DNA from: Candidatus Parcubacteria bacterium
Lineage (GTDB): Bacteria; Patescibacteriota; Patescibacteriia; UBA1558; GWA2-36-10
NCBI GenBank assembly: GCA_023246135.1
Contig: JAHFJB010000004.1
Location: 1 to 10,720 of the forward strand
DNA length: 10,720 nt
Reading direction: 5' to 3'
This document shows positions 3,862 through 8,536 of the stretch, one piece after another; the first letter of the stretch is position 1, and each line of letters opens with the position of its first letter. Both the position numbers and the translations under genes were made by a program. Below the pieces are notes generated by a model, which saw only the letters and a program-made list of their open reading frames with translations, did no database searches and was not told where the DNA came from.

Positions 3862-4569
3862 CTACTGATTATTTTTTTCAATATTTAATTCCCCAAATAA
3901 TTCATCTTGTTTAACTATAATTTCTTTTTGTTTGACTAATTCTAGGAGTGCCAAAAAGCCGACCACGACTTCCATCTTGTCTTTTTTATCCAACCATTCT
4001 TTAAAATTCATATGCACCCGCTCTTTAATCAAAATTTTTATCTCTTCTATTTTTTCACTGATAGAAATAGCTCGGGCAATCACGGCTTTGGGCAAATTGA
4101 TCAGATGCTCTATGCGCGATAGTACAAAAATAAAAGCCTTGCTCATAACATTGGCATCAACATTTTTTGGCGGACGGAATTCCTGTGGCAAATCAAATTT
4201 ATAAGGATTCAAACGCTCATAAGAACAATGTTTTTTATCCAAAAACATCCGATTAATCTCTTTACTAGCTTCATAATACTCCCGATAAATCTTGAGCTGG
4301 CGCTCCAAATCACCAACCTCTTCTTCGGCCTCAGTAGCCAAATCGGGCAAAAGATATTTTGATTTTAAATAAATCAGTTTGGAAGCAATCAATAAAAAAT
4401 CAGCCACTTCAGCAGAGGCTAAGTCATCAGCTTGTTCAATATAATCCAAATATTGATCGGTAATTTTGGCCAAAGAGATCTCAGTGATATGCAACTTATT
4501 CTTTTCAATAAGCTGTAACAACAAATCCAATGGCCCTTCAAATTGCTCTAAATGTATCTGATGCATCAT
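3862..4569 (-). CDS. scpA: segregation and condensation protein A (kleisin)
   Basis: ScpA is the kleisin that bridges the two SMC heads in bacterial condensin. The N-terminal signature IHLEQFEGPLDLLLQLIE (5-22), continuing KNKLHITEISLAKITDQYLDYI, is diagnostic. The C-terminal winged helix with VVVGFLALLELVKQKEIIV (around 200-220) and a final DELFGELN motif, which contacts the SMC head, is also intact. At 235 residues it is slightly shorter than the usual 240-260 but has both ends and the acidic linker (LATEAEEEVGDL, about 80-91). Two consecutive ATG codons are possible starts. No Shine-Dalgarno is present. The near-consensus promoter at 4596-4624 would give only about a 20-base leader, so this gene heads the operon scpA-scpB-rluB-dacA-tpiA-fba. 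Confidence 0.95.
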   Translation of the reverse strand: MMHQIHLEQFEGPLDLLLQLIEKNKLHITEISLAKITDQYLDYIEQADDLASAEVADFLLIASKLIYLKSKYLLPDLATEAEEEVGDLERQLKIYREYYEASKEINRMFLDKKHCSYERLNPYKFDLPQEFRPPKNVDANVMSKAFIFVLSRIEHLINLPKAVIARAISISEKIEEIKILIKERVHMNFKEWLDKKDKMEVVVGFLALLELVKQKEIIVKQDELFGELNIEKNNQ

Positions 4570-4581
4570 TCAATAAAATAA

Positions 4582-4594
4582 AAAATAGCATTGC
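4582..4594 (-). repeat. short dyad between the scpA -10 box and start codon
   Basis: The region just downstream of the scpA -10 box contains ATAGCA-A-TGCTAT, an exact inverted repeat around a single central base, followed on the minus strand by a run of six T. It overlaps the predicted transcription start. It could be an operator for a dimeric repressor or a weak leader hairpin; as an RNA stem it is only four pairs with a five-base loop. The inverted repeat is directly visible, but any function is inference. Confidence 0.35.
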
Positions 4595-4595
4595 T

Positions 4596-4624
4596 ATTAT
4601 AACATTTAAAACTTGTTTTTTCAA
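4596..4624 (-). promoter_or_regulatory. promoter of the scpA operon
   Basis: TTGAAA (4619-4624) and a perfect TATAAT (4596-4601) are separated by exactly 17 bases on the minus strand, one mismatch from the sigma-70 consensus. The expected transcription start is near 4589, about 20 bases before the scpA ATG. It lies immediately downstream of the candidate terminator at 4634-4665, so the operon starts as an independent unit. Confidence 0.8.
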
Positions 4625-4625
4625 T

Positions 4626-4851
4626 AAAATTAAGGGGGCCCAGCAGTACGAAACCGCCGGACCCCTCCACCCGAACTTTGAACTTCGCTCCATACGCACG
4701 TAGCGTTAGCTCTTGCTTGAAAGCAAAGTCTCGGTCCGGGAGAACCATCGATTTTCTGCCCCTTTGGGGGACACCAGGGGGCAAATCCTCGACGGTGGCC
4801 TTAAAAGCCTTATGTATACATGTGCATACGTGAATGTGCCTTTGATTTCCG
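4626..4851 (-). ncRNA. candidate structured noncoding RNA A (about 225 nt)
   Basis: A GC-rich segment in an AT-rich gap, bounded by a TTGACA-17-TACAAT promoter (4858-4886) and a 13-pair hairpin followed by CTTAATTTTA. On the minus strand several stems can be drawn. One is ACCGUCGA with UCGAUGGU enclosing UUGCCCC with GGGGCAG. Others are CCCGGAC with GUUCGGG, GUAUGC-ACAU-GUAUAC, and the UUGCU-UUCA-AGCAA hairpin. I see no RNase P, tmRNA or SRP RNA consensus. An open frame of 106 codons runs across it from a TTG that is the -35 box itself, through the hairpin and the scpA promoter, so it is unlikely to be a gene as it stands. However, its central part (about 4640-4800) has coding-like codons, so a small or decayed protein gene is the main alternative. 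The transcript ends are estimates. Confidence 0.5.
4634..4665 (-). terminator. intrinsic terminator of RNA A, just before the scpA promoter
   Basis: On the minus strand, bases 4665-4653 pair with 4647-4635 to form a 13-pair stem with three G-U pairs and a five-base loop (TTCGT). It starts GGGGTCCGG and ends GGGCCCC, and is followed by CTTAATTTTATT. The stem is very stable; the T tract is interrupted but acceptable. Position right before the TTGAAA box of the scpA promoter fits a transcript end. Confidence 0.65.
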
Positions 4852-4857
4852 ACAGAT

Positions 4858-4886
4858 ATTGTATAACAAAAAACAAATACTGTCAA
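4858..4886 (-). promoter_or_regulatory. promoter of candidate RNA A
   Basis: On the minus strand a perfect TTGACA (4881-4886) and TACAAT (4858-4863) are spaced by 17 bases. The predicted start is near 4851. No ribosome binding site plus long open frame follows, which is why an RNA product is preferred. Confidence 0.7.
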
Positions 4887-4911
4887 TAGTAAGTATTTTC
4901 TCTAATATTAG

Positions 4912-5057
4912 CTAAAAATTGATACCCCCGGTCCAAAAGACGAACACGGGGGTATGAAACAAAGGGGCCGCTGCTAAGTTTGCCGCGGGGGTTTGGTGAG
5001 AAAACGGCTCCCCCAGCGAACGGCCCCTGATCTTTCTAATGTCACTGGAACTTGAAT
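4912..5057 (-). ncRNA. candidate structured noncoding RNA B (about 145 nt)
   Basis: This GC-rich stretch downstream of aspS starts at a TTGACA-17-TATATA promoter and ends at a hairpin followed by CAATTTTT. The body folds as a long closed arm: AGGGGCCG (5028-5021) pairs with CGGCCCCT (4970-4963). Inside it are GGGGG (5014-5010) with CCCCC (4991-4987), and alternative pairings CGCTG/CAGCG and GCCG/CGGC. A 24-codon frame (GTG at about 5043, ending TAG inside the arm) exists but has no Shine-Dalgarno. I do not recognise a known RNA family. It could also act as the 3' terminator region of aspS, which has no other. Boundaries are inferred from the promoter and hairpin. Confidence 0.5.
4922..4955 (-). 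terminator. intrinsic terminator of RNA B
   Basis: ATACCCCCG (minus 4955-4947) pairs perfectly over nine bases with CGGGGGTAT (4930-4922) across a 16-base loop, and is followed on the minus strand by CAATTTTTAGC. The T run on this side only, with none on the plus side, sets the direction. It would end RNA B and any read-through from aspS. Confidence 0.7.
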
Positions 5058-5063
5058 ATTTTA

Positions 5064-5092
5064 TATATACAATAAATATATAATATTGTCAA
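5064..5092 (-). promoter_or_regulatory. promoter of candidate RNA B
   Basis: A perfect TTGACA (5087-5092) and TATATA (5064-5069) are spaced by 17 bases on the minus strand, beginning only nine bases after the aspS stop codon. The very AT-rich spacer and downstream region should melt easily. The predicted start is near 5057. Confidence 0.7.
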
Positions 5093-5101
5093 GAGGTAAC
5101 C

Positions 5102-6520
5102 TTATTTCTTTTTTATCTGTAGATGAAGCTCATCCAATTGTTCCTGCCCCACTGTTGAAGGTGACTCCATCATAGGATCACGGCCATCAGAAGTCAGAGG
5201 AAAAGCTGTCACTTCTTTCAAGTTTTTTTCACCCAAAAGTACCATCAGTAGTCTATCTATGCCCGGAGCAATGCCGCCATGGGGCGGTACGCCGTATTTA
5301 AAAGCTTCAAAATAATGTTTGAACTGTTCTTTTTGTTCTTTACTAAAGCCAATAAGCTCCCAGATCTTTTCCTGTACTTTCATATCATGGATGCGAATGG
5401 CTCCCCCACCAACTTCAAAACCGTTGAGTATTAAATCATGCTGATATGATTTGACCTTACTAGGATCCTTGTCTAAAAAGGCTAAGTCTTTTTCTTGAGG
5501 AGCTGTAAACATATTATGAGTTGGTCCCCAAGTCTTGCCGGCGCCAATAAACTTATCTTCGTCAGTCTGCTTAGTAAACAAAGGAAAATTTATCACCCAG
5601 GCAAAAGCTAATTCATCAACATCGTTTTTATCTTTCCTCAGATCAGGCTTATCAGTCTTATATTTTTTCATAACTTCATCATAATCTAAGCGCGGCCATG
5701 GTTCCTGAGTTATTTTCTTATGAGGAAATACCTCTTTGACCATAGCTATAAACATCTTTTCTACCAAGTCTAAAATATCTTCTTGACTGACAAATGACAT
5801 CTCCATATCTAGTTGATAGAACTCTCCCGGACTTCTGTCAGACCGCGCATCTTCATCACGAAAACATGGAGCCACCTGAAAATATCTATCCATACCAGCT
5901 ACCATTAGTAGCTGTTTGTATTGCTGGGGCGCTTGCGGCAAGGCAAAAAACTGGCCTGGATGAAGTCTAGATGGCACCAGATAATCCCGGGCGCCTTCCG
6001 GCGTAGACTTGGAAAGTATTGGAGTCTGAATTTCTATAAAATCTTGCGTATGCAAATAATTTCTAAAAAAGCTAATAACTTGATCGCGTATGACCAAATT
6101 GTGCTTCATCCTTTCATGACGCAAATCAAGATAACGATACTTAAGGCGCAATTCTTCATTGGCTTGGCGCTCTTCGTTGTCTATTTCAAACGGCGGAGTA
6201 TCAGCTGTAGATAAAACTTCTATTTTTTTGGCTAAAATTTCGACTGTGCCAGTAGCCAAATCTTTGTTGATTTGCTTATCTCCCCGCTTTTGCACTACAC
6301 CTGTAATACTCAAAACAAATTCCGGACGAATATCTTTGAGTAAGTCATTGCTAGCTTGGTCCAATTCACTGGGTACAGCGACTACTTGGACAATACCCCA
6401 GCGGTCTCTGAGATCCAAAAATACAATCTTACCCATATTGCGCCTATTGTGCACCCAACCTTTGATAAGCACTGTTTGGTTGACCTCACTAATAGTTTCT
6501 ATTGTTTTTTTTCTATCCAT
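5102..6520 (-). CDS. aspS: aspartyl-tRNA synthetase, lacking the GAD insertion
   Basis: This class II synthetase charges tRNA with aspartate. The N-terminal OB anticodon-binding domain (about 1-105) has GWVHNRRNMGKIVFLDLRD. The catalytic domain shows motif 1 around YLHTQDFIEIQTPIL (156-170), STPEGARDYLVPSR, motif 2 FRDED (221-225) with YQLDMEMSF, and motif 3 GGIAPGIDRLLM (416-427). STPEGARDYLVP and LPQAPQQYKQLLM are bacterial-type. At 472 residues it is about 110-120 short of the usual bacterial enzyme. The missing part is the GAD domain: only about 16 residues separate DKPDLR (291-296) from FPLF (313-316). The C-terminal AFPLTSDGRDPMMESPS is intact. Whether it also charges tRNA-Asn cannot be decided; asnS nearby makes that unnecessary. 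No Shine-Dalgarno precedes the ATG; a TATGAT box 15 bases upstream hints at a very short leader, but has no -35. Confidence 0.95.
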   Translation of the reverse strand: MDRKKTIETISEVNQTVLIKGWVHNRRNMGKIVFLDLRDRWGIVQVVAVPSELDQASNDLLKDIRPEFVLSITGVVQKRGDKQINKDLATGTVEILAKKIEVLSTADTPPFEIDNEERQANEELRLKYRYLDLRHERMKHNLVIRDQVISFFRNYLHTQDFIEIQTPILSKSTPEGARDYLVPSRLHPGQFFALPQAPQQYKQLLMVAGMDRYFQVAPCFRDEDARSDRSPGEFYQLDMEMSFVSQEDILDLVEKMFIAMVKEVFPHKKITQEPWPRLDYDEVMKKYKTDKPDLRKDKNDVDELAFAWVINFPLFTKQTDEDKFIGAGKTWGPTHNMFTAPQEKDLAFLDKDPSKVKSYQHDLILNGFEVGGGAIRIHDMKVQEKIWELIGFSKEQKEQFKHYFEAFKYGVPPHGGIAPGIDRLLMVLLGEKNLKEVTAFPLTSDGRDPMMESPSTVGQEQLDELHLQIKKK

Positions 6521-8112: not shown

Positions 8113-8138
8113 AAAGACCAGCCTCCGTGCTGGTCTTT
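8113..8138 (-). terminator. terminator-like hairpin after the 105-residue gene
   Basis: AAAGACCAGC pairs over ten bases with GCTGGTCTTT around a six-base loop. On the minus strand it begins inside the TAA stop of the gene at 8137-8454 and ends in TTT. The T run is short (it belongs to the stem), so termination may be partial. The A/T-ended stem would be usable in either direction. Confidence 0.55.
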
Positions 8139-8454
8139 AAGGTAACAGATGGGGTTGTTCACGATCCGAGAGAGGCCTCCCTGTCCTCTCGCTGACTCTA
8201 CTGATGAGGTTCTGGCAAGTTTCAACTAGCCGATGGTCGGTCAAGACTATTATGAAAAGGCTAAGGCCGTTGCCCAAGCACCGAATCTTCGTCTTGATTA
8301 ACCCCGAATGCCCGGCAGCTTCGCCCCTTTCTAGAACGTCAATAGAAGCTATGACGTCCAACGCTGCAACATAGGTTGGTAGATCTTTGGTAGGCAGAAT
8401 GAACCTTAACTCCGTCTCCTGGTCGTTAGGGTCGCTAGTCAGATGCTCGCTCAT
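8137..8454 (-). CDS. orphan 105-residue protein, function unknown
   Basis: I do not recognise this protein. It is likely a real gene. The ATG is preceded by AAGGGGTGA six bases upstream, the best Shine-Dalgarno in the window. A TTGACA-17-TATTTT promoter lies 54 bases before it, and a ten-pair hairpin follows the stop. The order of predicted elements is strand (TELRFILPT, about 14-22), helix (LPTYVAALDVIASIDVL, 25-41), two strands (TKIRCLG and SLFIIVLTD) and a helix (VETCQNLISRVSER), a beta-alpha-beta-beta-alpha pattern that would suit a small alpha/beta fold. It has two cysteines, no signal peptide and no membrane segment. It is GC-richer with a different codon choice (GAC, GGC, GTC, GAG) than the surrounding housekeeping genes, suggesting recent acquisition or unusual expression. 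A frame at 8043-8225 overlaps it and was not kept. Confidence 0.65.
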   Translation of the reverse strand: MSEHLTSDPNDQETELRFILPTKDLPTYVAALDVIASIDVLERGEAAGHSGLIKTKIRCLGNGLSLFIIVLTDHRLVETCQNLISRVSERTGRPLSDREQPHLLP

Positions 8455-8507
8455 TGGTGTTCACCCCTTTCCGTCCCCCAGTGGTAAGAGCCGCTTGTTT
8501 CAAATAT

Positions 8508-8536
8508 AAAATACACCCCCCATAGTGGCGTGTCAA
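8508..8536 (-). promoter_or_regulatory. promoter of the 105-residue gene
   Basis: A perfect TTGACA (8531-8536) and TATTTT (8508-8513) are spaced by 17 bases on the minus strand. The spacer contains a GGGGGG run. The predicted start is near 8501, giving a leader of roughly 45 bases with the strong ribosome binding site. Confidence 0.65.

Follow-up and report, generated by a model that had tools for sequence, protein, structure and literature searches.

The window analysed here is a stretch of 10,720 nucleotides from an uncultivated, ultrasmall Candidatus Parcubacteria bacterium, referred to as G000, whose source assembly (592 kb in 120 contigs, 65% complete) represents an incomplete genome with a GC content of 34.5% in the sampled contigs. 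The genes around the locus of interest are ordinary: a tRNA-Thr lies between two class II D/K/N synthetases, followed by scpA, scpB and others. The gene name aspS is that of the first-pass annotation and its Pfam basis is tRNA-synt_2; the closest named contigs for this gene belong to Parcubacteria and Komeilibacteria, at 70-79% identity. Our comparison covered 21 genomes of the bacterial family, 36 of the order and 285 of the class. The scpA gene is present in all 21 family genomes, and the region upstream of it was inspected in the 20 genomes other than G000. Between aspS and scpA lies a gap of 532 bases in which, read along the minus strand, a promoter, RNA2, a terminator, a palindrome, a second promoter, RNA1, a second terminator and the scpA promoter follow one another (the ends of both RNAs are inferred):

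5102..6520, minus strand: aspS, class II D/K/N aminoacyl-tRNA synthetase, the upstream gene (Pfam tRNA-synt_2, 8e-113)
5064..5092, minus strand: putative RNA2 promoter, TTGACA-17-TATATA (own scan; absent from the stock consensus scan)
4922..5057, minus strand: RNA2, candidate small RNA of hairpin family A (fold z-score, loop family, synteny)
4982..5008, minus strand: RNA2 apical hairpin, stem GCCGU/GCGGC, loop UUUCUCACCAAACCCCC (fold and family alignment)
4922..4955, minus strand: RNA2 terminator-like hairpin, -20.9 kcal/mol (own scan)
4897..4916, no strand: palindrome TTTAGCTAATATTAGAGAAA, possible operator (genome matches and synteny)
4858..4886, minus strand: putative RNA1 promoter, TTGACA-17-TACAAT (own and stock scans)
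4633..4851, minus strand: RNA1, candidate small RNA (fold z-score; no sequence relative found)
4633..4668, minus strand: RNA1 terminator-like hairpin, -26.1 kcal/mol (own and stock scans)
4596..4624, minus strand: putative scpA promoter, TTGAAA-17-TATAAT, with TG before the -10 box (own and stock scans)
3862..4569, minus strand: scpA, the downstream gene (Pfam SMC_ScpA, 3e-23)

The three minus-strand promoters with 17-base spacers described in the first-pass annotation were recovered at 5092-5064, 4886-4858 and 4624-4596. Its further observation, that two perfect TTGACA boxes are each followed by a GC-rich structured segment and a terminator-like hairpin, agrees with our scan and with the folding z-scores, which were -5.5 for RNA1 (4626-4851) and -5.1 for RNA2 (4912-5057), with none of 200 shuffles equally stable in either case; each RNA has a GC content of 53%. 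A scan for a promoter followed by a terminator found two units in the gap and none on the opposite strand, whereas 197 of 200 dinucleotide shuffles of the gap contained no unit, three contained one and none contained two. The stock consensus scan returned the RNA1 and scpA promoters, another promoter at 5197-5169 inside aspS, and the RNA1 terminator alone, and its counts were not above those of their own shuffles (3 promoters vs 2.6; 1 terminator vs 1.2). Since the unit scan exceeds its shuffles and the stock counts do not, the excess of signal lies in the order of promoters and terminators rather than in their number. The weak points of these assignments are the short U tracts of the terminator calls (AATTTTTAG and CTTAATTTTA) and the -10 box of the RNA2 promoter, which matches only 4 of 6 consensus positions. 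Additionally, the unit scan joined the RNA2 promoter to an earlier hairpin (5012-4964, -12.5), the bearer of the RNA2 loop, and the RNA2 terminator of the first-pass annotation is the next hairpin after it. The sole tandem repeat found in the gap consists of 21 AT-rich bases at 5065-5085.

Neither RNA had been recognised from its sequence as a known family, and this holds for Rfam 15: in a cmscan of the whole window the tRNA alone reaches the gathering score, as do tRNAs alone in the loci of 20 relatives. A permissive cmscan of the gap returned three sub-threshold matches (SNORA24, BjrC68 and tmRNA), the best at 14.8 bits against a cut-off of 40, and all were rejected as far below the cut-off. 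When 50,697 phage records were searched by blastn with the gap as query, 11 of them gave a match, each covering 5-9% of the query. Against 91 relatives, matches occurred in 13 genomes, including G000 itself; outside this genome they spanned 23-55 bases and lay at the scpA-promoter end, at the palindrome or in the first 50 bases.

The apical hairpin of RNA2 connects the window with a set of hairpins that we designate family A, whose trail began with an 18-base loop match between the relatives G010 and G018. The exact loop pattern was found in 4 of the 36 order genomes, with no match for a reversed-pattern control: G018 and G010 have it in their aspS-scpA gaps, G014 has it immediately behind aspS, and in G019 it lies at another place. 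In each of these genomes the motif fills a hairpin loop. The stem of these four sequences presents two-sided changes in 7 of 8 pairs, and with RNA2 and a G002 sequence added, all 30 cells of five pairs are paired and all five pairs show two-sided changes, both alignments (A3 and A4) being N-padded and hand-anchored on loop and stem, and the count controls leaning towards the stated stem. The covariation check proposed earlier could be applied to the RNA2 hairpin alone, in small hand-anchored alignments that show compensatory stem changes; RNA1 has no aligning relative, since it matches none of the 27 cassette RNAs cut by hand (E <0.05), and is a sequence orphan.

The RNA2 loop, UUUCUCACCAAACCCCC, contains UCUC, CCAA and CCCCC as in family A, with a shorter middle. 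This long G-free arrangement (UCUC..CCAA..CCCCC) was recognised in RNA2 by a pattern widened on seeing RNA2, and it arose in 4 of 20,000 shuffles of RNA2. A four-sequence model built without RNA2 gave it as the best match in the window (9.7 bits, E 1.1); RNA2 was absent from the matches of this model at E 1 in its own genome and from those of the model search of 285 class genomes, and a model including RNA2 scored it weakly (14.5 bits, E 0.34). The model score is weak; independent support comes from the position of RNA2, in synteny with the palindrome, and RNA2 most likely belongs, as a divergent member, to hairpin family A with its constant G-free loop.

The four-sequence model also found G002:C37 (E 0.04), which lies in a cassette with promoter and terminator and had already been seen through the wider pattern. 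A relaxed pattern, drafted after seeing RNA2, matched 11 places in the 36 genomes against 12 reversed-control matches, which as a raw count is no excess. Of the ten places inspected, all but G034:C12, six are in hairpin loops of cassettes and four are not; five of the six cassette loops have a scanned promoter, and G019:C28 has only a TTGACA box identified by eye. A third pattern matched 10 places in 9 of the 21 family genomes against 2 control matches and added G005:C3, where the motif lies in a junction and was left out of the stem counts. Family A is also represented away from scpA, in G019, G002 and G005. The pattern matches G014:C38, G001:C51, G020:C23 and G011:C9 were rejected as family A. 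Similarly, a model search of the 36 genomes (R1, E<=1) gave matches in G033 (two), G002:C51, G034 and G008 that were rejected for having no promoter-to-terminator unit on their strand, the last three also overlapping ORFs; a search of the 285 class genomes with stricter filters (R2, E 0.05) gave six matches, namely one training sequence and five rejected places that overlap ORFs and have no unit. As a separate observation, G033:C28 and G033:C35 present one GC-rich hairpin, with a loop around CCCCCCAAACCCCCC, twice inside a longer repeated stretch. Taken from the sequence comparisons, the loop-constant hairpins appear to constitute a new RNA family, common to related bacteria.

In G000, G018 and G010, a palindrome like TTTAGCTAATATTAGC stands directly 3' of the family-A unit and ahead of the promoter that comes next; in G014 the two are split between contigs, the family-A unit closing one and the palindrome opening another. 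The palindrome follows the family-A unit in all four gaps having that unit and is found in none of the 17 other gaps; near the family-A members outside the gap, in G019, G002 and G005, it was not found. The position of RNA1 is that of the last cassette in G018, G010 and G014, and GUGUCCCC of RNA1 was also noticed by eye in the first cassettes of G018 and G014. Across G000, the AT-rich palindrome TTAGCTAATATTAGC has 12 matches (9 without overlapping loci), all intergenic and often near promoters, and one shuffle of this genome gave none; in G016, 13 of 14 matches are intergenic, and one shuffle gave five. The palindrome is perhaps the binding site of a regulator.

This locus is unusual across the bacterial family. 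Among gaps of at least 250 bases, a promoter-RNA-terminator unit occurs in 15 of 20 aspS-scpA gaps versus 14 of 95 background gaps, and at least two units occur in 5 of 20 versus 0 of 95; the background was drawn from sampled stretches of six relatives, where a simple gene caller of our own delimited the gaps that separate co-directional genes. The length-matched test leaves out G008, in G003 and G014 the gap starts at the end of a contig, and related genomes are not independent. In total, the scan identified 23 co-directional units in 15 of 21 gaps and 4 on the opposite strand, with 0.3 expected from shuffles; the gap of G008 has 8 bases and no cassette, and five other genomes have no scanned unit. 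After reading the gaps, we cut 27 cassette RNAs by hand from 17 genomes, some of them missed by the scan. Most cassettes are not alignable between genera, and at E <0.05 only three sets align: one cassette in three genomes of the genus g4 (79-80% identity), in which two-sided changes affect 3 of 35 pairs and the covariation term is slightly unfavourable; two RNAs from G005 (84% over 128 bases); and the 18-base loop match of G010 and G018. The two related RNAs of G005 are about 375 nt long, form tandem cassettes in its aspS-scpA gap and have no Rfam match. In the corresponding gap of G020, the acceptor and T arm of one cassette RNA resemble those of a tRNA (GGAGGGA ... GGGTTCTAATCCC ... TCCCTCCA); neither ARAGORN nor Rfam calls this RNA a tRNA.

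The best explanation for these comparisons is that the aspS-scpA gap is a hotspot where the bacterial family gains and replaces cassettes. The first-pass suggestion of a small pair of independently expressed RNA genes consequently stands in part: separate genes remain the best reading, and the pair is not a lone one but belongs to a family-wide hotspot. A fixed address for gained and replaced small-RNA genes, one family of which can be followed from genus to genus through its loop, offers an entry to RNA regulation in Patescibacteria.

Together, these observations make it fairly probable, in our judgement, that the window contains two small RNA genes in a family hotspot, with RNA2 in a loop-constant hairpin family and acting through its loop. 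The promoters, structures, terminators, hotspot, loop family and synteny on which this reading builds are present in the sequence itself. In the mechanism that we propose, in which the expression of the RNAs, their targets and the direction of the effect are all inferred, RNA1 and RNA2 would each be transcribed from a housekeeping-type promoter of its own as far as an intrinsic terminator, so that scpA would be served by the third promoter. The constant G-free loop would be the working part of RNA2, the stem needing only to pair, and the loop would pair with other messages at G-rich sites, above all in Shine-Dalgarno-like leaders, dampening the translation of its targets without Hfq, which is found in 0 of the 21 family genomes. 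Such loop pairing is likely for RNA2, and RNA1 is probably another RNA of this broad type, with control perhaps exerted via the palindrome just before its promoter.

The relatives indicate where such pairing could be directed. Unpaired CCUCC is the 5-mer most in excess in the cassette RNAs (7 of 24 versus 1.1 expected, the set being the 27 hand-cut RNAs minus the near copies G014_1, G018_3 and G005_3), although it was first spotted by eye in the same RNAs, with the ranking of all 5-mers as the control. The 16S 3' end in G000, G016 and G018, located by a model search for the gene, is GGATCACCTCCTTTCT, and CCUCC is the ribosomal anti-Shine-Dalgarno core; a good part of the cassette loops therefore look like copies of this core, and such loops may pair with leaders as the C-rich small RNAs of Gram-positives do. 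RNA1 and RNA2 have no unpaired CCUCC. RNA1 has an unpaired UCCC, a motif not in excess overall (7 of 27 versus 6.0 expected), and under the p>0.5 rule neither UCCC nor CUCC is unpaired in RNA2, whose loop nonetheless contains CCCCC. Both share with the C-rich-region class an own promoter, an intrinsic terminator and the absence of a long ORF, and an anti-Shine-Dalgarno role for them would be an extension from the relatives. Pairing of the RNA2 loop with one target leader reached -14.7 kcal/mol, the best beside 76 sampled genes, an energy not above shuffles (equalled or exceeded in 71 of 1000 shuffles of the leader and in 420 of 1000 of the loop).

Shine-Dalgarno use itself divides the genes. 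In sampled stretches of seven genomes (G000, G004, G005, G006, G010, G016 and G019), the motif precedes 36 of 46 genes with a GC content of at least 0.45 versus 64 of 912 others, and at a control site 30 bases further upstream it precedes 5 of 46 and 58 of 912, respectively. The GC-rich genes come from 23 stretches of six genomes, with the motif in 17 of 18 for G010 and 10 of 12 for G005; in the sample from G000, no gene of this GC content passed the score cut. Only a GC-rich gene set seems to use Shine-Dalgarno sites and, if so, it would be the natural target set; this split makes the anti-Shine-Dalgarno idea directly testable. More speculatively, and with a low probability in our view, the Shine-Dalgarno site could serve as an address label through which the fast-changing RNAs of the aspS-scpA hotspot, with their anti-Shine-Dalgarno loops, exert global, Hfq-free control over the GC-rich accessory set alone. 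Were this true, low-GC housekeeping genes, which have no sites above background, would escape, and scattered GC-rich accessory genes with strong sites would be controlled. The window also contains, at 8137-8536 on the minus strand, a 105-aa ORF of 51% GC (8137-8454) outside the called genes and with no Pfam match, preceded by a promoter TTGACA-17-TATTTT at 8536-8508 and followed by a hairpin, where the terminator scan called no terminator; its leader GGAAAGGGGTGAACACCAATG pairs with the 16S 3' end at -17.2 kcal/mol, compared with -1.8 for aspS and -0.4 for scpA.

The same loops could instead be landing sites for a protein rather than antisense seeds. KH-domain proteins, for instance, recognise short pyrimidine runs, and a constant loop with several such runs (UCUC, CC, CCCCC) on variable stems would suit them, as would the failure to find target pairing, which was sought for one leader and did not rise above shuffles. 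We nevertheless consider a protein site rather unlikely, given that the top unpaired 5-mer is CCUCC, the anti-Shine-Dalgarno core, and that CCUU and UCCC runs are not in excess.

Less probable still is that the cassettes are by-products, with remnants of terminators and promoters arisen by chance, in a gap under no constraint, yielding noise transcription at most. The poor alignability of most cassettes between genera would fit this explanation, as would the genome with the 8-base gap and the five others without a scanned unit. However, the constant loop, the compensatory stem changes and the conserved order with the palindrome need selection, a further cassette is kept in the three g4 genomes, and the excess over matched gaps is large. 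An action in cis on scpA, with the cassettes as its leaders or attenuators, agrees with units lying just upstream of scpA and co-directional with it in 15 of 21 gaps, but is very improbable because scpA has its own promoter after the last terminator in the window, a site resembling it also lies 5' of scpA in most relatives shown, and family A also occurs away from this gene. Finally, despite Shine-Dalgarno sites in 6 of 12 cassette ORFs of at least 0.45 GC elsewhere, it is very improbable that RNA1 or RNA2 encodes a small protein, as some other GC-rich cassettes of the family do between promoter and terminator, since the 106-aa frame that spans RNA1 has its start at the TTG of the RNA1 -35 box, continues into scpA and has no Pfam match, and RNA2 has just a 23-aa frame on its strand.

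The preferred reading, two small RNA genes with loop pairing in RNA2, can be compared with several known systems. Within the open-access literature, no paper was found on regulatory small RNAs of these bacteria, subscription journals and preprints being outside this scope, and a perspective on Patescibacteria mentions, in its accessible excerpts, riboswitches as tools only (PMC11665869). TIGR guide-RNA arrays, described in excerpts of PMC12045711 as noncoding RNA loci of phages and parasitic bacteria, are likewise noncoding RNA loci, but the gap is not a tandem array. A closer parallel is offered by LhrC1-5 of Listeria, which, in the excerpted text of PMC4132741, comprise several short independent RNA genes; through G-poor CUCCC/UCCC motifs located in loops and single-stranded segments, these RNAs base-pair to a target at its Shine-Dalgarno region. 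The cassettes share with them the several short independent genes and the G-poor, C-rich loop motifs; in contrast, the LhrC copies resemble one another and have a known target, whereas RNA1 and RNA2 are not alike and have no Rfam match. Similarly, RoxS/RsaE, FsrA and CsfG of Firmicutes pair with leaders through C-rich single-stranded regions, according to excerpts of PMC8216469. The window RNAs may work through such regions too, leader pairing being proposed here, but they belong to a different phylum and have no sequence or Rfam kinship with these RNAs. Two further differences set the family apart from the Firmicutes: Hfq is absent, and the Shine-Dalgarno excess is confined to GC-rich genes in the sampled genomes, so that candidate targets in this family would be few.
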